From positions 1 through 64,000 of IMG/VR virus record IMGVR_UViG_3300010885_022465: a DNA stretch of 64,000 nt. The stretch is one strand, 5' to 3'. The notes under the pieces are model-generated. The model saw only the letters and a list, made by a program, of their open reading frames with translations, had not been told where the DNA came from and did no database searches. Below, piece after piece: positions 5,700-46,000 of this stretch. The position numbers and the translations under genes were made by a program. The stretch comes from a virus. The first letter of the stretch is position 1; each line of letters begins with the position of its first letter.

Positions 5700-5872
5700 A
5701 TGTATTTTAGTTGTTTAGGTTTACTACTCAAAAGAACTGTTACACATAAGAAAGATAACTCTATCTCATATACTCTACCATCAAATCTTGGATACCTATT
5801 AAACAATACACTAGGAATAAGATACCATGCCTGTAGGTTATACCATGCATCTAACTTAACATTTCTTTTCAT
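5696..5872 (-). CDS. Hypothetical protein (58 aa), first gene of terminase operon
   Basis: The ATG at 5872 opens MKRNVKLDAWYNLQAWYLIP..., ending in a TGA that overlaps the next start codon. Lying 34 nt downstream of a -7 box (5906-5913), it is the first gene of the leftward operon. The aromatic-rich sequence has no clear membrane helix or family. A rightward frame over the same bases (5700-5891) is judged to be its shadow. Confidence 0.55.
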   Translation of the reverse strand: MKRNVKLDAWYNLQAWYLIPSVLFNRYPRFDGRVYEIELSFLCVTVLLSSKPKQLKYI

Positions 5873-5905
5873 ATTACTTGCTTTATATTAAAAAATTTAG
5901 TATTG

Positions 5906-5913
5906 CAAATATA
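5906..5913 (-). promoter_or_regulatory. -7 box TATATTTG for the terminase operon
   Basis: CAAATATA on the plus strand reads TATATTTG leftward, about 34 nt before the first ATG of the operon (5872). No well-spaced TTG is visible, so a phage activator might be needed. Confidence 0.45.
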
Positions 5914-6206
5914 ATACAATTTACATGTAAAAAACACATTTCCTCAAAAGTTTGTACGCATAAATACAAAGCAAATTGTCACCACAAAAAGCAACACTAA
6001 CTTATTGACAATCAACTACATAACTCCCCGTGCTATATATGTTCCTTTTGGATAGTCCTTAATGGCTAGTATGAGTAATCCCATTACGAATGCCCATATA
6101 GATGCAGTCCTAGAGCTCTAATCAGGTACCAATATGTAAAACATACCCCTCCCCTTTTTAAAAACATCCTTACGTAACTCACTGGTAATTAGGTAAATTT
6201 TTGAAA

Positions 6207-6251
6207 TACGTCTGTGGGTTTTTTGTGAAAAATATGCGGTACGTCTGTGGG
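6207..6251. repeat. Pair of 12-bp direct repeats, 33 bp apart
   Basis: TACGTCTGTGGG occurs at 6207-6218 and again at 6240-6251. The 33-bp step is about three helical turns, so two proteins bound here would lie on the same DNA face. Candidate operator or origin sites. Confidence 0.6.
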
Positions 6252-6671
6252 GGGCTTACTCGACCACATGTATCCCCCACCTCCTTCAACCGAAAACCGA
6301 ACATTCTGATTATCAACACTTTACGATCGTGTTTTTCTGCTTTTCACCCTTAATTATTTGATTCTCACACACTTACACACTACCTAAGTTGTTCACAGGT
6401 GTTAATTTATTGATACTCAGTTAGTTGAGGGTGTTTAGTGGTGTGTTACCCCCGCCGAAAATTCACCTTATTTCAGTACTTTTGTGGCTACTTTTTTACC
6501 TTATTTTGTCCCGTTTTTGCCTGTTTTTTGGGTACTTCTGAAATTATTTTCACTTTTTTTAAATTATTTTTTATCGTCATATATCCTTGATTTTCAGTTT
6601 GTTATCCTCATGTACGCGCGCGCGAATCCAACTTCAATTCAAATTAAATTTTCAAATTAGAATTTATATAG

Positions 6672-6679
6672 TATATTTG
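6672..6679 (+). promoter_or_regulatory. -7 box TATATTTG in the control region
   Basis: TATATTTG at 6672-6679, preceded by an AT-rich tract without a clear TTG. It would give a transcript with about 560 nt of leader before the first early gene at 7244, or a separate RNA from this region. Confidence 0.4.
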
Positions 6680-6910
6680 TCCTGTCCCTCAGTCAAAACA
6701 ACGACACACAACAGGGCACCACGCTTGCATCGGTAGGGTGGTTATAGATAAAGGTTTGTGTATGGTACGCTGTACATATAACGAATATAGGAAATTGCTA
6801 TGCACGAACTGACAGAAAAGGTTATGTTGCTTAGGGTGGATAAGTATGTTCGGACTTGAAATAAGGTTTACGAATTTGTTGGCAAAACGACAAAGCAACC
6901 GATATTATTA

Positions 6911-6960
6911 CGTGTACATGGGCGTTTAGGCGTGTACGTTCCCTAGGGAACACGTGTATA
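6911..6960. promoter_or_regulatory. Palindrome with flanking CGTGTAC repeats (putative operator)
   Basis: GTTCCCTAGGGAAC (6938-6951) is a perfect 14-bp palindrome. CGTGTAC occurs at 6911-6917 and 6931-6937, with CACGTGTAT following the palindrome. This symmetric site upstream of the early genes suggests a dimeric regulator, for instance the XRE protein encoded at 12696-12953. Confidence 0.5.
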
Positions 6961-7189
6961 TAGTGTAATATTAGGACTTTGTGGCAAGAGGGTGCAAAAC
7001 GTAAATTATGGGGTGCAATTATTAAGGTAGGGATACCACACTAATAACGTGTGAATTGTGCGAAGTAAAGGATATAAGGCAATATTGAGTAATTAACACA
7101 ATTACGTGAAATATAGTACGACTTTACTTGAAAAAATGTTTCTTGAATTTCTTATATAGTTGGTTTACTGAAGAGTACAAAAGTACGAA

Positions 7190-7220
7190 ACGAACGTGTG
7201 AATAATAGTAACACGTTCGT
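7190..7220. promoter_or_regulatory. 10-bp inverted repeat just upstream of first early gene
   Basis: ACGAACGTGT (7190-7199) and ACACGTTCGT (7211-7220) are perfect reverse complements around 11 nt, ending 23 bp before the ATG at 7244. It could be an operator or a hairpin in the leader RNA. There is no T-run, so it is not a terminator. Confidence 0.55.
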
Positions 7221-7243
7221 ATAAACCTATAAAATTATATATC

Positions 7244-9574: not shown

Positions 9575-11056
9575 ATGGAAAAAACTTGGTTAGGCAGCGA
9601 GATGCTGCTATGGATTGCAGACAAATCAATTCAAAAATCGTTTGTTGCTCAGTGTAGAAGCACTGCAATGGATAGAAGTTATCAGTCTTTTCATGACCTT
9701 ATTAACTCCAATCTTACATGGGCAACTACAGTAGAGGGTGGAGAGTTTTGGAGAGACATGTCACGAAGAAATGACACACCCGACTATGTAAATATTGACG
9801 GTGAACAAGTACATATATCTTTAGTGGTAGAGTTCTCAGAGCATTCAAGAAGAGCAGGCGAGAGAACGCATATAGGTGACCTTTCTTGCGCTGAATGTAT
9901 AGAGTTAGGCGAATGGTTTGAGTTAGACGAACTAGAGTCTGTAGTTGATAGATACGGAAATCATCAAAGCTATATATCTTCTCACTGGTTAGAGGACGGC
10001 GACGGAGATTACGTAATTACAATCGAAGGAGATTATATACACAGAAACGACGCTATATCAGCACAAGCTAATGATAAAGAGGCGTTTTACCCTTCAAGAA
10101 ACAGAGGCGAATGCGTTAAGTCCGACAGAGATGACAGATGGTTTACTAGTCCAAGAGTCGCTAATGATTTTGACTACTATTGGCGTGACCACGTTCAAGA
10201 TTACATCCACCTTGATGAAGATGATTTTAACGAGCCTGAAGAAGAAGATTCAGAAGATGCTAGAGAATACAACGCAGGATACCACAACCTTAATAGGACA
10301 TGGAAAACACCTACCGCAACAAAATTCACTGTAGGCTTTGAGATAGAGAAAGAGGATAACGAGCTAGCGTGTAGGTATCACTATCAGGACTTGTATAATC
10401 GCACACAATGGTGCAAGGAACGTGACGGCTCACTAGATGACAATTCAGGCTATGAGTTAGTATCACCTGTACTTGATTTATTCACTAATCAGCTAGAGGT
10501 AGAGCTTAAAGACGAGGCTATTCGTGAGCTAATCAATGCCGAGTACTGCACATCAACATGCGGTGGTCACATCAATCTAGGTTCAAGCGAGTATTCTCCC
10601 GAAGAATTGTTCGAGGGTATGTCTGCTTTCTATCCTTTATTGTATGCAATGTATCCTTACAGAATTAGTAAGAATTATAGCAAGGCAAAAAAGAAACATG
10701 AGTACTACCAAAAAGAAAAGTATTCTGCTATCTATATGCGTGACCAAGTATTAGAGTTCAGAATCTTTTCAGGTGTTAAGAATGTAGAGCAACTTGTTTG
10801 GAGACGTGACTTGATTCGCATATTCTGCGACAACATCAACAAGTCAGAGTCAGACGTACTACGTATGCTTATCGAGCATCGTAGCAAATTGTACAAACAC
10901 TTACGCAAAGTGTACAGCCAAGAGACTTTGATTGACAAGACTGAATTGTTTATCAATCACGTTCGTGAATGGAACAACAAAAAGTTGCCTGCAATTGACC
11001 GCGAGCAACTTAAGAGAGACAAAATCATCGACAACAATGCAGATAAAGCTGCTTAA
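9575..11056 (+). CDS. Amidoligase (COOH-NH2 ligase type 2, glutamine-synthetase fold)
   Basis: The second half shows the ordered motifs of the Amidoligase_2 family: GFEIEKE (254-260), ERDGS (282-286), YELVSP (293-298), CGGHINLG (329-336) and LEFRIFSG (393-400). The family uses ATP to join a carboxylate to an amine, giving amide or peptide bonds. The N-terminal 250 residues are a separate region with a TTVEGGEFW motif (51-59), two Cys (C105, C108) and an acidic linker, and may recognise the substrate. The next gene encodes a glutamine-hydrolysing amidotransferase that could feed ammonia to it. Substrate unknown: candidates are host envelope peptides, a protein side chain or a small metabolite. 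Confidence 0.8.
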   Translation: MEKTWLGSEMLLWIADKSIQKSFVAQCRSTAMDRSYQSFHDLINSNLTWATTVEGGEFWRDMSRRNDTPDYVNIDGEQVHISLVVEFSEHSRRAGERTHIGDLSCAECIELGEWFELDELESVVDRYGNHQSYISSHWLEDGDGDYVITIEGDYIHRNDAISAQANDKEAFYPSRNRGECVKSDRDDRWFTSPRVANDFDYYWRDHVQDYIHLDEDDFNEPEEEDSEDAREYNAGYHNLNRTWKTPTATKFTVGFEIEKEDNELACRYHYQDLYNRTQWCKERDGSLDDNSGYELVSPVLDLFTNQLEVELKDEAIRELINAEYCTSTCGGHINLGSSEYSPEELFEGMSAFYPLLYAMYPYRISKNYSKAKKKHEYYQKEKYSAIYMRDQVLEFRIFSGVKNVEQLVWRRDLIRIFCDNINKSESDVLRMLIEHRSKLYKHLRKVYSQETLIDKTELFINHVREWNNKKLPAIDREQLKRDKIIDNNADKAA

Positions 11057-11086
11057 TTAAATTATAAACTATTAAAATTAAATATC

Positions 11087-12052
11087 ATGTGTATAGCAAT
11101 AATGAATGGATTCAAAACGACACTCAAAAAGGATTGGGTTCGTAACTCTTGGGAAAACAATGGCGATGGCGCAGGTCTGCTATGGGTAAACGACGGCAAG
11201 TTAGAAATCTTTAAAGAGATGACTACGTTCGACACGTACTACAATAAGTATATAGAAGTACGCAAAGAGTTTCCAAAAAGTAATATATTACTACACTTCC
11301 GTATCTCAACACACGGCAAGATTAACTCGACCAACTGTCATCCTTTCTTGGTTGATAAGACTATGGGATTCATACATAATGGTATGATTCACCAAGTAGA
11401 ACGCAACACAGAATTCAGTGACACGTACATGTTCAACGAGCTTATCCTTAAGAAGTTACCAAAAGGATTCGAGAAGAATGTTGCAATGCAAGAGTTGTTA
11501 CATAGCTACATCGACAGCAGTAAGTTAGTGTTCTTAAGTAACAAGAACGAGCCTACGATTATCAACGAAGAAGCAGGTCACTGGGTAGGTGACACGTGGT
11601 TCAGTAACTCATCATACAAACAGGTTAACTCATGGGTTGACTACGGAGGGACAAAGAAATCAAAGTCAGCAGTTGGCTATGCCTCTCAAGGTTGGTACGG
11701 AGGCACAAGCTATGCTACGTCATGGGATAAAACAAGTACATATACATCTAATGCTTATGTTGATGCTAAGATTACAAGTCACACATGTACAGGTTGCAAA
11801 GATTATCTATATGAAGATGAGGTACTTGACGGTATGTGTTCGTACTGCATTGAGGAAGCGGCAATGCACGAATTGGAAGACGTTAAAGAGTACTCGATAG
11901 CTGATGACTTAACTACGTATGAATGTCAATGCGACGGCTGCGACTCATTAAAGATTACAAAATGGAACGTTGCTTACTCTGCATCATTATGCAAGACTTG
12001 CGACGACTCATTAATAGAGACGGAACAAGAACTTTACCCAAAGTACTACTAA
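11087..12052 (+). CDS. Class-II glutamine amidotransferase with C-terminal zinc ribbons
   Basis: The protein starts MC, so removal of Met exposes the catalytic N-terminal Cys. The usual N-terminal-nucleophile signature follows: HFRISTHG (70-77), a CHPF motif (84-87), HNG oxyanion segment (97-99) and SDTYM (111-115), closely matching GlmS/PurF-type glutaminase domains. These domains release ammonia from glutamine for a partner synthase, here presumably the amidoligase 30 nt upstream. The last ~90 residues add two zinc-ribbon-like cysteine clusters (CTGC...CSYC and CQCDGC...CKTC), unusual for this family, perhaps for partner or nucleic-acid binding. It has a long AT-rich leader. Confidence 0.85.
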   Translation: MCIAIMNGFKTTLKKDWVRNSWENNGDGAGLLWVNDGKLEIFKEMTTFDTYYNKYIEVRKEFPKSNILLHFRISTHGKINSTNCHPFLVDKTMGFIHNGMIHQVERNTEFSDTYMFNELILKKLPKGFEKNVAMQELLHSYIDSSKLVFLSNKNEPTIINEEAGHWVGDTWFSNSSYKQVNSWVDYGGTKKSKSAVGYASQGWYGGTSYATSWDKTSTYTSNAYVDAKITSHTCTGCKDYLYEDEVLDGMCSYCIEEAAMHELEDVKEYSIADDLTTYECQCDGCDSLKITKWNVAYSASLCKTCDDSLIETEQELYPKYY

Positions 12053-12066
12053 TCAATCACTATCAC

Positions 12067-12126
12067 ATGTTAAAATTAGAGTACTTCATCATAGCTGCAA
12101 TACTTTTATTATTGTGGTTTTTATAA
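12067..12126 (+). CDS. Putative 19-aa membrane peptide
   Basis: ATG at 12067 after an AATCACTATCAC leader gives MLKLEYFIIAAILLLLWFL, a single hydrophobic helix, directly before a UUCG hairpin. The leader resembles those of larger genes here, which supports translation, but the peptide is very short. Confidence 0.35.
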   Translation: MLKLEYFIIAAILLLLWFL

Positions 12127-12131
12127 AACAC

Positions 12132-12156
12132 GGCAGGGCTTCGGCTCTGCCTTATT
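12132..12156 (+). terminator. UUCG-capped hairpin, probable terminator or mRNA processing site
   Basis: GGCAGGGC/GCTCTGCC (12132-12139/12144-12151) pairs with one wobble around a TTCG tetraloop and is followed by TTATT. The U-run is weak, so termination may be partial. Confidence 0.65.
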
Positions 12157-12165
12157 AAACTAACT

Positions 12166-12453
12166 ATGAGTTTATATACAGACTACAGAGACGAAATATT
12201 ATCATTACTAAACAATCACGACTGGGGTATAGGATGCAATAAAATGCCCGATATGGATATAATTGGTCAGTTTGAATTGGAAATTGATATGCTAACAGAA
12301 GGCAAGCTACTTAACTACATTAAAACTCTTGGAGAGACTACGGAAAACTATACAGACAAAGTTTCTTTCTATGAGAATGTAATTACAAAATACTGCCAAC
12401 ATAAGATTAAAACTGAAGAAAGTTTAAAGTTTTATTTTCAATTTTATTTTTAA
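12166..12453 (+). CDS. Hypothetical protein (95 aa)
   Basis: Acidic, helical protein starting 10 nt after the UUCG hairpin. No domain recognised. It may be the last gene of the amidoligase segment or the first of a new unit. Confidence 0.55.
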   Translation: MSLYTDYRDEILSLLNNHDWGIGCNKMPDMDIIGQFELEIDMLTEGKLLNYIKTLGETTENYTDKVSFYENVITKYCQHKIKTEESLKFYFQFYF

Positions 12454-14474: not shown

Positions 14475-14853
14475 TTTTAATGTTGGAGATAGAGTTGTCT
14501 GTATTGACGACTCTAAACCAAAAGATTTTAAACCTCATCACTTCCCTAATTGGGTAGTACAAGACGAGATTTACCACGTAAGAGCAATCCTAAACAACGA
14601 TGACATAGTTCCTGGTGTATTGCTTAGGGAGATTAAAAATCCTATGTTATTCATTCCTTTAATCAACGAGCTTCAAGAAGGGGCATTTAGAGAAACAAGA
14701 TTCAGCCTATTGAAGTCTGCGCAAATGATTATGGAAACTGAAGAACATTCTGCTGAAGTGTTTAAGAGGTGGAAACAAAAACAAAAACAGAAATATGAAA
14801 ACAATTACATCAACAATGCTTTTGTGGGTAGCACTCACGAGCCTAACAGCTAA
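14467..14853 (+). CDS. Hypothetical protein (128 aa), SH3-like N-terminus
   Basis: Begins MSDFNVGDRVVCIDDSK...W.V.DEIYHVRAI, a pattern common in small phage proteins with an SH3-like barrel (beta-rich, 'VGDxVVCID'). The C-terminus is a basic Lys/Gln helix that overlaps the RlpA-like gene by 59 nt. Function unknown. Confidence 0.55.
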   Translation: MSDFNVGDRVVCIDDSKPKDFKPHHFPNWVVQDEIYHVRAILNNDDIVPGVLLREIKNPMLFIPLINELQEGAFRETRFSLLKSAQMIMETEEHSAEVFKRWKQKQKQKYENNYINNAFVGSTHEPNS

Positions 14854-15142
14854 AGACGTTCACTATCACATGATTTCTTGGTATGGAAAACCATTTCATG
14901 GCAGATACACTAAGTCAGGTGAAATATTTGATATGTACAAATTAACCTGTGCATCAAATACTTACAAGTTCGGAACTAAATTAAAAGTAACAAACCCTGA
15001 GACAGGTAAAAGTGTAGTGGTAAGAGTTAACGATTCAGGAGGTTTTTCTAAGATTAAATTAGATTTATCTATGGAAGCCTTCAAGCGTATTGCAGACCTA
15101 CAAAGAGGATGCATAAAAGTAACAATTAAAGTATTAAAATAA
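14795..15142 (+). CDS. RlpA-like double-psi beta-barrel protein, secreted
   Basis: A signal-peptide-like N-terminus (residues 1-19) is followed by the RlpA/DPBB pattern: SWYG (28-31), GRYTKSGE (36-43), FGTKLKVTNPETGKSVVVRV (59-78) with Asp80, and LDLS (89-92). Glu43 and Asp80 sit where RlpA lytic transglycosylases have their catalytic acids. It would act on periplasmic peptidoglycan. Lying in the early/middle block, far from the lysis cassette, it may remodel the wall during infection rather than lyse the cell. It is followed by three small genes, two of them membrane proteins. Confidence 0.78.
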   Translation: MKTITSTMLLWVALTSLTAKDVHYHMISWYGKPFHGRYTKSGEIFDMYKLTCASNTYKFGTKLKVTNPETGKSVVVRVNDSGGFSKIKLDLSMEAFKRIADLQRGCIKVTIKVLK

Positions 15143-41000: not shown

Positions 41001-42551
41001 TTCATTTGTCATTTGTTTTTTAGCTTCATGATATTTGTCGGCACTTTCTTTGATTTTGTCTGAAATATATTTTTTATATACAGCAACTCTAGCAACTTCA
41101 TTAGGTTGTAATAATACATACTTTCCAGCTTCAGCATCTACAGCTCTAGCAGTAATAAAATCACTTACAGCTTTTCTATTGCCTTCATCTTGAAGGTGTT
41201 CTATTGCGTCTTGAAACAGTTGTTTATCTGAATATGTATTTCCATTGTCAGATTCTTGTTCTGCTTCTTTTTCAAAACCTTCATAAAAATTAAAAGCATT
41301 TCTACTTCCTAAACCTGCGCCCTGACCATAAGTTTTTTCACCTTCAATTTTTTCCTGTTGAGCAATAACTTTTTCTAAGTCTAATTCTAGTTCAGCTAAT
41401 TGAGCGTCAGTTAATTCTCCTAATTTAGTGTAGTTGTCAATAGTATCTTTACGAGCTTCTCTAATAGCATCACGTATTTTATATTTTGCATTAACTACTA
41501 AATTATTTACCCTTCTTTCAAATGCCTCTCTAATGTTCTCAGGTATAAGGTAATACGCAGCAAGTATTGAAGACTTAAGAGTGTTTTCTTTTTTGATAGC
41601 TTTCTCTGCAGCTTTATTGTTTTCAGTTAATTGTTTTTCTTTTACAGCTAAAAATTCTTGAATATCTTTAGCTTCTTGCATCGTCATTTTACCTTCACCA
41701 ATTAAATGGGTCATGTAATCTCCTAATGTCTTGAAAGTGTATGGTTCTTCTTTTGTGTCTATTTCTGAATTTATTACTTCCGTTGAAGTTATTTCTCCTT
41801 CTGCATTTGTAGATGTAATAGTCTTACTTGTTTTTACAGTTTCTCCTTTACTTGGGAATATGGTAATAGGCTCGTACCCTGAAAGTCTAGCATTAGTCCA
41901 CTTACCAAGTAAGTCTTTTGGTTTCCAAGACATTTTATCAGCAATAGCTTGAGACGCTTCAGATACTTTTGAATCAGAAAATTTAACTTTTCTATCATGT
42001 TCGTTTACTTGTCTTTCAGGAACATAGTCAGGAATTTTTAATTCAGTAGGTCCTGATACTTGAGCAGCATAAAACTCACCTGTTTTTTTGTTTTCTCTAA
42101 TTGCAAAGTCTACTTCTTTTTTAGTTCCAGGATGTTTAGCTTTAAATGTTTTATTCATAGGGTCTACCTGACTAACCGTAAACTCCATCCCTTTAGAATC
42201 TTTTAATTTTTCACCTAATTGAATTGGGTTAGGCTGTTTTGTCTCTGCAGTAGGCTCAGGAGTAGTCTGTTCTTGTTTAACTTCAGCTTTTGGTTTAGCT
42301 GTTTTTTTAACTGGCTTTTTTTCAGCAACAGGTTGTTCAGTTTTAACTTCAGGTTCAGGAGCTTTAAACAAACTTTTTATTTGTTCAGATTGTTGTTTTT
42401 CCTCTTCAGTTAATTGAATAGGTTTTACATTAGCAGTAGGTTTTACCATTCCGTCAGTTACGTAATCCTGCAATAATCCATCTTTCAATTTCATTTTCAG
42501 CGTGTCCTCGGTCATCCAAGTACCACCTACTAAGTAATGTTTACAATCCAT
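38007..42551 (-). CDS. Giant internal virion protein (1514 aa)
   Basis: A multidomain, highly charged protein. The N-terminus is rich in Pro/Lys/Glu (residues 60-120). Long coiled coils and a Gly/Thr/Ser spacer (GTTGQVGSGTTGIVGDGSTG) follow, and the C-terminal third has a TGRG...FFSTKLMASRRR segment (about 1164-1195) and a hydrophobic helix (ASIIGLVTGAIAIGVGG). The TGRG/FS...SR pattern is, from memory, common near the ends of phage ejection or 'polyvalent' proteins. It probably enters the host with the DNA. It ends in an FGNDFKSD tandem repeat. Confidence 0.65.
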   Translation of the reverse strand: MDCKHYLVGGTWMTEDTLKMKLKDGLLQDYVTDGMVKPTANVKPIQLTEEEKQQSEQIKSLFKAPEPEVKTEQPVAEKKPVKKTAKPKAEVKQEQTTPEPTAETKQPNPIQLGEKLKDSKGMEFTVSQVDPMNKTFKAKHPGTKKEVDFAIRENKKTGEFYAAQVSGPTELKIPDYVPERQVNEHDRKVKFSDSKVSEASQAIADKMSWKPKDLLGKWTNARLSGYEPITIFPSKGETVKTSKTITSTNAEGEITSTEVINSEIDTKEEPYTFKTLGDYMTHLIGEGKMTMQEAKDIQEFLAVKEKQLTENNKAAEKAIKKENTLKSSILAAYYLIPENIREAFERRVNNLVVNAKYKIRDAIREARKDTIDNYTKLGELTDAQLAELELDLEKVIAQQEKIEGEKTYGQGAGLGSRNAFNFYEGFEKEAEQESDNGNTYSDKQLFQDAIEHLQDEGNRKAVSDFITARAVDAEAGKYVLLQPNEVARVAVYKKYISDKIKESADKYHEAKKQMTNEEAHELWKDYEEKNKEWEREDKNIALISAATRRATSSSFRLFDYLVSDDFDFGRQVRLEEKLLNRTLTVDERKELVNIQAKYNQLQKEKAELEKKLSEAETNEGVSSAIEKLKKELEESKKNQGTGQEGSGTTGQVGSGTTGIVGDGSTGMSGDGNGKTKPTVDKNDKLNLTKDYIMQFIEKGITEPEDLVTAIKSNLESEHGIVRTDREIADLISGYGEKTFTSLDELDKAFLRAKAILRSKSKIEDAENKKRPFPQSGEQREITPREKELKDELKGLLDRMELTPEEQAGIDAKKLDQVKKTLGERIRKYKATNKQIYDLDIPSVINKDKDLLGNDKPEHFLTNEQSNGNNFGEVSLAVQNGNYVDAIKAKAISASDVMKILKSYNITPTTNIRALHKAEVDMARKTFKMPEPVKKRLYLDDEITQKKIELEQIKDDSQYRLEKIKKAQYSDTKKFTEAILNAFSIPKGLKAMVDLSAPYRQGWVRIVSAIPRELLGKNEGAVKREIQSFGLMHKFAWKPELLDLYIAEQKANNPLWGLMMESKLEITDSTKQEEEYFGTQMLNSVPLFGEKLNFGRYVKGVTSSKNRGLNLLKRSEAAYSGYLNLQRINAFTDAYNMLSLDPTFDIRTKEGITTLKGVSQAINTMTGRGKSNVFANKELAGIMSRVFFSTKLMASRRRMISFGLDVPKGAARRYAQKEILYYMAGQASIIGLVTGAIAIGVGGSSEDETDAKKAARKGTFDKQYIGNKNLGISFNPTSSVFGQLKIGDTFIDLSGGIFMLPRAIARLVTEEKVTQSGRAINYNTPGDNEIWATPFIDYFVNKTAPITHQTIDFLQRKNTGEKLDKKQLAIDLTMPLFIESFMTNMDNPIYEEGSTQQKILGTALNLMSFYGFSVQEPDKKDNSLTQKDKREYLLEQLRQGNPTAISSQKQNEILKGKAEPKTAEQKQEDKAYNLERNKALRKMGINTTVRRKARSSSEFGNDFKSDFGNDFKSDF
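38011..38060 (-). repeat. 24-bp tandem repeat at the 3' end of the 1514-aa gene
   Basis: Two 24-bp units encode EFGNDFKSDFGNDFKSDF at the extreme C-terminus. Confidence 0.7.
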
Positions 42552-43017
42552 TTCCTATCTCTTGGTCAAATACTATAACGTTATCTCCTGTAATTGCTAA
42601 TCTTGCAAGTAAATCTCCATATTCTCCTACAGCTTTAACTTGAATTTTAATCATCTCTAATATGATGTTTTCACATCTAGAAGGTACTTCTTCTTCAACA
42701 CTTTCGTAATATTCTAAAAGATTTAATTCCATTTCGTATGCTTTTTCAAACATTTCGTCGATAGTTTCAATGTCTTCGTCTTGTTCTTCTAATGCTGGCA
42801 TACAAATACGAACTCCCATATCATTTAGGAATTTTGCTAACTTTTCAAAATGTTCGTTTTCATCTTTAGCTTCTGCTAAGAAAAATTTCTCACATCCAAA
42901 CAATCCTTTCATTCTAGCTATGTTAGCCAAATGTTCATATGTTTGTGAAGCAAGTTTCTCAAAATGACCTGCTTGGTTGAATAACTCTATTTCTTCAGGT
43001 TTTAGTAATTCTTTCAT
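42541..43017 (-). CDS. Ferritin-like protein (158 aa)
   Basis: Four-helix pattern of the ferritin superfamily. Glu in FEKLASQTY sits seven residues before Tyr as in bacterial ferritins; DENEH supplies the ExxH pair; AYEMELNL gives a further Glu and KIQVKA a Gln, so most ferroxidase ligands seem kept, though the last Glu is absent. The spacing and the linker MGVRICMPALE match ferritin. ATG 43017 is used because the longer frame begins with TTG. It lies between two giant internal-protein genes, overlapping the downstream one. It could store iron, protect DNA, or be a structural four-helix bundle. Confidence 0.7.
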   Translation of the reverse strand: MKELLKPEEIELFNQAGHFEKLASQTYEHLANIARMKGLFGCEKFFLAEAKDENEHFEKLAKFLNDMGVRICMPALEEQDEDIETIDEMFEKAYEMELNLLEYYESVEEEVPSRCENIILEMIKIQVKAVGEYGDLLARLAITGDNVIVFDQEIGNGL

Positions 43018-43019
43018 TA

Positions 43020-46000
43020 TTAGCAATCTTTAGTTTTTAATTTTAGTTGTTCAACTATGGACTCAAAGTTATCATTAATTTCGTTAATATCATTCATTTC
43101 ACTTTGGTATTGTGCTTCAAACTTTTTGTTTTTAACAGGGTTTTTACCTATTTGTCTTTTCTCGTGGAATGGGTTATTTTCCGTTACATCAAGCAAAGGT
43201 AAAGCCTCTAATTTTTTATTTTCTATTTCTTGTTTTCTTTCTTGAACTTTTGTGTCATCAGAAAGAACAGTTTTTGTTTCTTTAACTACAGTTGGAGTAT
43301 CGTCTACTTGAGCATTTGTTTTACTTGTTGCAGGCTCAGTGGTGGATTGTACTCCTTCACCTTGTCCTGTTTGCGTACTTGACTCAGCTGTAGATTGAAC
43401 GTTTCCATCAGTAGGAGTATTTGTTGACGTTGTGCTTTCATTAGTTTTTAATGATTCAATTTTTGCATCATACTCTGCATTTATTTTGTCAAGTTCTTTA
43501 GCATACTCAGGTTGTCTTTTTTCTCTTTCTAAACTTGCTTGTTCCTCATTGTCTGTATCAACTTTTTGAAATTTAGTAGAAAGTTCATTTATTGCTAAAT
43601 CTCTTTCGTTTTCAATATCTTCAATTGTTTTTCCGCTTACCTCTTTGGATGGCTCTTGAACCACTCCACTTGTTTCAGTCGCTTGACTGCCTGTTTCTTG
43701 GACAGGTTGTTCTTGGATAGATTCTTCAGGTGTTCCGACTTCACTTGGTATCCCTGCTTGGTTTTGATTATCATTAGTTTCAGTATTAACTTGTTCTTCT
43801 TTTTCCCTTGAAGTTAATTCAGGCTCTGTAGTTGTAGGTTCTGTAGTAATTTCTTTTGATTCAAACTCTTGGTTGACCACTTCAACCGTACCGCCTTGAA
43901 TTTGCTCCTCAGTAACTTTTTCTCCAGTCATCTTCTCTACGTTAGCCTGAATGTTTTTAATGTCATTGTGAGCGTTAGGATTGACCTTCATGTAGATTTG
44001 AGCTAGCGCAGTTTTCTGTGGTAATGTAAGTTTTGCTTTTTCTGCAAAATCTAAGAAAGCATTAGAGTTAAAATACTCTTTACCTACTTGCTTATTAAAT
44101 AGATTCCATGCGTCTGTTGATATTGCAGTTGAAGATTTTTCTCCGTCCTCCATATCAAAATAAACATGAGTAGCTGTAGGATTAGATTTAACTACGATTT
44201 TCTTAGTAACACCTATACCACCTTTAATACTTCCAAATAATGCAGAAGTAAACAAAACTGTTGCAGCTTGTTGTCCATCTCCATATCCTTTAGCCCAATC
44301 ATTTCCTTCAACAATATTTGTACCTGTAACCTCAACATAAGTTTCAAGCATCTCATGGTGCATTTCACCAATCTTACCAGCTTCTTTTATTTTGTTTACG
44401 TAGTTAGTTAATTCATCTGCAGATGTAAAACCTTTTTTACGCATAAAAGCTCCGACTACATTTCTTTTGAAAAATTGATTACTAGACATATAATCTATAA
44501 CCTTTTTTCCTATAACATTGTCTAGCTGCTTCATTATTAATCCACCTGTTAATTCAGCTCCAGTAGAAATTAAACTACCTCCAAATGATTTCGCTACAGC
44601 TTCAAGTTCTCCTTCATGACCTTTTTCCATTTGTGCAATAGCATCATCCATAACTCCTGCGTGAAGCGCAACCATTGTTTCATTTACATTCTGTTGTTTT
44701 CTTTCTTTAAGAGAAGCAACAGTTCCTGGTTGAGCCGCTGTAGTTAAAAAAATTCTAGCCAATCCATTAGAACCTCTAGAAGCCATATTCATTACTTGTT
44801 GCGTAAACTTTACGGTTTCAGGATTAAGCAATGCAGCACCTGCATTAGTTACAGCTTTAGATGAATCAACAATCGCATTAACAGCCATTCTTTCTCCTGC
44901 AGATTTTACAGAAGACTTTGCAAGAATTTCAGACGCTCCTGTAAAAGTTAAATTTAAACCTCCTTCAATAAATGCTAACTCTGACATTATAGATAAAGTT
45001 TGACCTACACCTGTACCTAATCCGTGAACAAAAGAAGTAGGAGTAAAATTATCAAGAGTTCCTTTTATTGTTTTTGTTAAAAGTAATCCTGCATCAGCTC
45101 TACTTGCTGTTCCATTGCTATAGTTTTTAGCTGCTTTAGAAAGTCTATCAGCGTCATAACTTCTAATTATACCTCCAATAAACGGAATGTCCGCTTCTGC
45201 AAAACCTTTAACAAAAGAGCTAAAAGTATTTTGTTCGTTTTCAGGTCTATCAATACCATCTTGAACTACTTCTAATTGATGTTTCCATTTAGCATATCTC
45301 TCATTATGGTAAGCATCTTTACCTAAAGTTGTCTCTAGGTATTTCATGTTAGCTACAATCTCTGCTTTAGAATCTTCAAGTATTGCTTTGTATTGAAATA
45401 CATTTCCTTTTTCATCAGAAATTGCATCGTAGTTTGAGTAAACTCTAAATTTATCGTGTGCAGCTTTACTAATTAAATGAGAATAAACAGCCATGTCTTC
45501 AGATGTTTTAGCCCTCAATGGACCTGTCCATTCTGTAAAATGTTTGTTTAATCTTTCTTCTTCATTCTTTGGAGTAGGAACGCCTGTGCCTGCAAAAAAC
45601 TCTGTAGAATCAGCAACGTGCTTATTCCAAAGGTTTTCAGTCATTACCTTTTTTGTTTGGTAATCAGCTTTTTTATACGCAGTAGATTCCTGTAAAGCAT
45701 CAGTAGAATTATAAACATTGTATTGAGCTAAATATCCTGATTGTCTTTCAAGTTTTTTTAATCCTGTGGTATAGTTTTTTTGTAAATCTCTGACACACTC
45801 ATCTCTCAAGCTAGCAGCCATAGAAATTTGCGCTAATTGAGTTTGTTTGTTTAAGTTATCAGTTTCTGTTTTTAAATGGTCTGTGTACGCTTTATTTAAT
45901 TCTTTGTATTCAGGAATTGCACTTAACTTTCCTTTTAGTTCTGTTGACAATGATTGTCTTTGTTCAGCACTTGCGCTCATCATTTTTTCATTATACTCTT

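Follow-up and report, generated by a model that had tools for sequence, protein, structure and literature searches.

Known phage cassettes and the source record

Cassettes with amidoligases have reportedly been listed in phages since 2009, when Iyer et al. are said to have described the one of phiEco32/LUZ24, with altering the host cell wall as the proposed role. The full cassette, found in phiEco32, LUZ24 and the Crassvirales phage phi14:2, comprises a COOH-NH2 ligase, an amidoligase, a class-II glutamine amidotransferase (GATase), a RimK-like ATP-grasp enzyme and GGCT. The combination of an amidoligase with a GATase is itself a published phage cassette (PMC3890496, PMC5498523, PMC10580990). 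It has been called a "peptidoglycan modification cassette" and is thought to block superinfection (PMC5498523), and both genes have been found in two isolates and in more than 30 metagenomic OM43-phage genomes (PMC10580990). Neither an enzyme assay nor a target is reported for phage amidoligase cassettes in the literature that we found.

The pair of genes described here, P0001 and P0002, lies in a window of 64,000 nucleotides (the whole stretch of DNA that was analysed), taken from a virus record 64,531 bases long. The record is that of a crAss-like bacteriophage. Its proteins include one of 1468 aa that belongs with the Crassvirus muzzle family by its match (4e-21) and another that matches crAss tail ring 2 (8e-4), and its helicase is nearest to those of Cellulophaga phages phi40:1/phi38:1 (31%); taken together, these matches point to a probable Bacteroidota host. 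The major capsid protein of the window matches the SU10_MCP family. Lengths of 63.9-65.7 kb are common among the contigs with the pair (the record of the window, L001, L006, L009, L012, L085, L114, L117), so that there may be a lineage of crAss-like phages with small genomes (~65 kb), under the size usual for Crassvirales.

Several other features of the window can be mentioned here. A small RlpA-like double-psi beta-barrel protein (DPBB_1, 8e-17; 14795-15142, plus strand), possibly acting on the cell wall, is encoded in the early gene block. A 161-aa ORF inside the structural block (42541-43026, minus strand), assigned by eye, resembles the ferritin/rubrerythrin-like protein of the Pfam scan. 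Finally, about 1.5 kb without a long ORF (5700-7243), where the leftward gene block switches to the rightward one, is a candidate control or origin region.

The amidoligase gene

The first gene of the pair and its two parts are as follows.

9575..11056, plus strand: P0001, Amidoligase_2-type ligase of 493 aa (open intact frame, PF12224 matches of the family, fold, invariant residues)
9575..10318, plus strand: N-terminal extension, residues 1-248 (DSSP and pLDDT of the model; homologous in relatives)
10319..10978, plus strand: catalytic core, residues 249-468 (motif alignment; pLDDT mostly above 93)

Searched alone, P0001 has no Pfam match, PF12224 included, even at E 10, no convincing family in Pfam, PHROGs, NCBIfam, PADLOC and PDB-sequence searches, and no tblastn match in 50,697 phage records. 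A role in anti-phage defence was rejected, there being no PADLOC match. The family of P0001 is more informative, as Amidoligase_2 (PF12224) is matched by 11 of its 62 aligned members (best 3.2e-7). Moreover, the profile of P0001 aligns motif for motif with the amidoligase of phiEco32 and gp06 of MEP402 (hhalign E 5e-6), and more weakly with the amidoligase of LUZ24 (hhalign 9.5e-4), the motifs GFEIE, DGSL, ELVSP, CGGHI and EFRIF being lined up with those of all three.

The core motifs of P0001 are GFEIEKED, ERDGSL, GYELVSP, CGGHIN, KYSAIY and EFRIF, and the elements GxExE, DGS, GYEL, GGHI and ExR are present in order and are invariant or nearly so in the 62 sequences. Fourteen residues are invariant there, 13 of them within the core (G254, E256, E258, K259, G292, E294, G330, G331, H332, R363, E394, R396, R410). 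The earlier note had named the loss of catalytic motifs upon alignment as an observation that would speak against its reading; the motifs are instead invariant across about 60 diverse relatives.

In the AlphaFold model of P0001 the pLDDT averages 84 and is mostly above 93 in the core. Its structural matches include the carboxylate-amine ligase YbdK (E 3.9e-4, prob 1.00), followed by gamma-glutamylmethylamide synthetase GmaS and glutamine synthetase (GS). Thus, judging by its relatives, motifs and predicted fold, P0001 is an Amidoligase_2-type enzyme with a glutamine-synthetase fold, and the Amidoligase_2 assignment originally made for 9575-11056 agrees with the motifs, the PF12224 matches of the family and the YbdK/GmaS/GS fold alike.

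The N-terminal region of the model contains repeating strand-turn-strand-short-helix units at residues ~71 to 215, residues 1-65 being of low confidence, and the extension is therefore predicted to be a series of short beta-hairpin units. The hairpin motif was found 211 times, with 68 expected, but the enrichment is only suggestive, since the pattern was picked post hoc and the sequences are related. A zinc-ribbon ancestry was rejected: no link to the Cys-rich parts of ctgrD200/Marvin was seen (hhalign E 0.84), and thus the region was kept as a hairpin-repeat one.

The extension is homologous in other sub-clades (hhalign E 4e-7 to 2e-11), in some of them with CxxC pairs, yet core-only amidoligases without it also exist, with a total length of ~300-360 aa in several members. 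As the region recurs across sub-clades and is missing from several members, it is an optional, plastic family module, common to most relatives, and no novelty of the crAss-like phage. Consistent with this, many viral structure matches to P0001 are named amidoligase (one is named "LIM domain containing protein"). Hence, of the "novel 250-residue N-terminal region" proposed earlier, the extension of about 250 residues holds, but not its novelty, being family-wide and alignable, in the model, with many viral amidoligases.

The region may bind a substrate or a partner. Its large size and variability, resembling a binding module, would also fit an explanation in which the ligase acts on side chains of host or phage proteins by amidation or conjugation, in the way of PafA/Dop with Pup, the hairpin region binding the target. 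PafA/Dop share the GS fold and give weak structural matches to P0001, but these matches (E 0.01-0.08) are weaker than those of small-molecule ligases; moreover, core-only members manage without the extension, and no Pup-like protein was identified, so that we regard protein modification as improbable.

The glutaminase gene

The second gene encodes a GATase with two cysteine clusters.

11087..12052, plus strand: P0002, stand-alone class-II glutamine amidotransferase (glutaminase) of 321 aa (PF13230, GlmS fold, catalytic residues)
11786..11848, plus strand: first Cys cluster, C234-x2-C237-x13-C251-x2-C254, zinc-ribbon-like (sequence; conserved in the nearest relatives)
11930..12001, plus strand: second Cys cluster, C282-x2-C285-x16-C302-x2-C305, zinc-ribbon-like (sequence; conserved in the nearest relatives)

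P0002 exceeds the cut-off of the Pfam family GATase_4 (PF13230; 26.2 vs 23 bits, E 4.7e-6). Residues C2, H70, R72, N98, G99 and D112 are invariant in 63 sequences, the catalytic residues align in register with those of GlmS and YafJ from E. coli, and the motif for glutamine recognition, H-F-R-x-S-T-H-G, lines up exactly with that of GlmS. The top structural match of the P0002 model is the GlmS glutaminase domain (1xff, E 8.9e-7), which has an Ntn-type fold. Full-length GlmS is excluded, as there are no SIS domains in the 321 aa and the glutaminase part alone aligns; in particular, TIGR01135 yields 29 bits against a cut-off of 418 bits. With complete catalytic residues, PF13230 and the GlmS glutaminase fold, the stand-alone GlmS-type glutaminase of the earlier note is confirmed. 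Repeated sub-threshold matches of P0002 to PPR proteins in the PDB search were dropped.

The profile scores are equal for a GlmS-like and a YafJ/EgtC-like origin of the GATase, and EgtC is matched by the P0002 model (1e-5) nearly as well as GlmS, with an additional NCBIfam match at E 0.004. These matches bear on the main rival of an amidation reading, a gamma-glutamyl cycle in which the amidoligase couples an acid, glutamate or another, to the amine of a metabolite, a peptide or a protein, while gamma-glutamyl groups are removed or trimmed by the enzyme with the GATase fold, in the style of EgtA/EgtC. GATase-like folds also serve as gamma-glutamyl hydrolases, and YbdK and the gamma-glutamyl ligase GmaS, matched by the P0001 model, would suit such a cycle, while the exact GlmS register of the recognition motif and the first rank of the GlmS glutaminase among the structural matches argue against it.

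All eight cluster cysteines of P0002 are invariant in the alignment with its two closest homologues, so that both CxxC...CxxC clusters noticed earlier are real, and some other relatives keep the second cluster alone. Among complete, non-redundant relatives in which no fusion was detected (the simple-pattern flag for fusions undercounts them), four CxxC motifs are present in 15 GATases, two in 28, one in 5 and none in 43. Thus, the clusters are confined to a part of the GATase family; in P0002 they may bind a substrate or a partner.

Linkage of the two genes and their neighbourhood

P0001 is followed by P0002 on the same strand, with ~30 bp between them. Scans of viral contigs gave 157 loci, reduced to 109 systems upon removal of duplicates. 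Both genes are present in 99 of the 109 non-redundant loci, and the other ten (seven with the amidoligase only and three with the GATase only) are all at contig ends, at most ~1 kb away. Hence, homologues in which the two genes are never associated, also named beforehand as counter-evidence, did not appear: the pair is together wherever a locus has space for the two genes. The genes are co-stranded in 99/99 loci, with the amidoligase first in 96/99 and a median gap of 31 bp. In some phages two amidoligase genes flank, or are near, one GATase (L016:25-3737, L096:6766-10647).

Distance matrices of the amidoligase core and the GATase domain are correlated (r 0.87; maximum of 0.16 in 999 shuffles), and, as this mirror-tree signal comes without a control gene, shared phage descent may account for part of it. 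The next most common gene family near the pair occurs in 34 of 105 loci, and there is no conserved third gene, so two genes appear sufficient. The pair is closely followed by genes of recombination and replication (ERF, exonuclease, primase/helicase), a location that suggests early expression. Directly after the pair there is a possible transcript end.

12132..12151, plus strand: 8-bp RNA hairpin GGCAGGGC-UUCG-GCUCUGCC (fold of 12100-12170, z -4.5)

Owing to its poor T run, this hairpin is missing from the output of the terminator scan.

Strict two-gene linkage, as well as the N-terminal region, is left unexplained by auxiliary nitrogen metabolism, in which the pair would help to channel nitrogen into the amino acids of an infected cell; hosts, moreover, possess GlnA and glutaminases already, and we consider this explanation very unlikely. 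It follows a proposal for Phage-ZRK32, which carries the same gene types (amidoligase/GATase/GGCT) and is reported to raise host growth with ammonium or nitrate; the proposal appears to be based there on gene content and growth, not enzyme assays (PMC10945688).

Distant relatives

A set of distant relatives has GATases with a fused GGCT domain (PF06094 E 7e-26; 24 GATase proteins), often with a C-terminal CxxC pair; the fusion loci are L048, L051-L053, L055, L058, L062, L074 and others. The fusion accompanies 13 of 17 core-only amidoligases vs 8 of 64 extended ones, a comparison that is phylogenetically confounded. It points to a tie between the pair and gamma-glutamyl chemistry, as does GGCT in the full cassettes of LUZ24 and phi14:2. 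However, GGCT is absent from the window and from most near relatives, and on balance we hold a gamma-glutamyl cycle to be unlikely here, though less so than the other rivals.

The pair is also found on a bacterial chromosome, that of Chitinophaga eiseniae (L167:4784-6753), where the ORFs overlap, suggesting that the two genes may be translationally coupled in this bacterium. This copy is flanked on one side by a Prok-E2/ThiF gene pair and on the other by tra genes of the CTnDOT type (TraM, TraJ, DUF4138), and therefore lies on a CTnDOT-type conjugative element. Of the scans of cellular genomes, the first, with the amidoligase as the query, yielded no homologue, and the one with the GATase yielded a single homologue, in Chitinophaga. 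Since no further copy was found in draws of 395 genomes from the phylum of Chitinophaga and 398 from its order, it looks like a rare acquisition. The GATase-GGCT fusions and the Chitinophaga conjugative-transposon copy are the most distinctive extras of this family of pairs.

Proposed reaction and target

The identities of the two genes, their catalytic residues, their linkage and the correlation of their divergence are observed, and the reading that we prefer, with a probability of roughly 55%, is that the pair is a minimal glutamine-dependent amidation module, in which ammonia from the glutaminase is passed to an ATP-dependent amidoligase, yielding an amide of a carboxylate. P0002 would hydrolyse glutamine via Cys2, N-terminal once Met is removed; P0001, as a GS-fold ligase, would activate a carboxylate with ATP and join it to the ammonia released by P0002. 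The two proteins probably act as a complex, and the acceptor is presumed to be ammonia rather than another amine. No biochemical data for the P0001/P0002 subfamily were found in the literature searched. Thus, the coupled amidation with glutamine-derived ammonia put forward in the earlier note remains the best-supported reading, while the implied novelty of the pairing does not stand, given the published phage cassettes.

The most likely target, weakly indicated by analogy with MurT-GatD and with what has been proposed for phiEco32, would be a molecule of the host envelope, for instance a peptidoglycan peptide carboxylate. One could go further and suppose a self-sufficient module, with a hairpin-repeat substrate-binding region unlike phiEco32, that is exchanged between crAss-like phages with a lytic life style and conjugative transposons of Bacteroidota. 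Such a module would exclude competitors by amidating a conserved target in Bacteroidota hosts, either an envelope component or a protein; all this is a speculation that we consider doubtful.

Of the forms of the cassette, the two-gene version, whose pairing is kept in about 100 phage loci, lends itself most simply to testing, and the Chitinophaga conjugative-transposon copy offers a culturable bacterial host for the pair.

Comparison with known systems

The two folds of P0001/P0002 are also paired in EgtA/EgtC of ergothioneine synthesis, EgtC being structurally matched; EgtA has the GS fold, but EgtC strips the gamma-glutamyl group and does not supply ammonia. MurT-GatD has a Mur-ligase fold and a glutaminase of a different class. 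Its two-gene logic of a ligase with a glutaminase, used in the amidation of peptidoglycan Glu (PMC3267633), is likened to the present pair by analogy alone.

Among phages, phiEco32/LUZ24 resemble the window in that their early/replication region has an Amidoligase_2 enzyme beside a class-II GATase, but differ from it in the extra COOH-NH2 ligase, RimK-like ATP-grasp enzyme and GGCT. The other cassette enzymes were not found in the window by phmmer with proteins of LUZ24, phiEco32 and StenR_269, and none of the 59 window proteins matches Pfam ATP-grasp or GGACT. The Cellulophaga phage phi14:2 (Crassvirales) is likewise crAss-like and has adjoining GATase and amidoligase genes, but it carries the full five-gene set, and its amidoligase is marginally alignable (hhalign E 0.04). 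In Marvin (gp105-106), MEP402 (gp06-07) and ctgrD200 an extended amidoligase is directly followed by the GATase, the other cassette genes not being adjacent; however, the N-terminal parts in Marvin and ctgrD200 have no detectable homology to that of P0001, and the hosts of these phages (Marvin is a mycobacteriophage) differ from that of the crAss-like phage.

Thus, the finding of a well-conserved pair holds, but the kind of system has already been described: in the crAss-like phage it is a two-gene form reduced from the full cassette, with a pairing already known from many phages.
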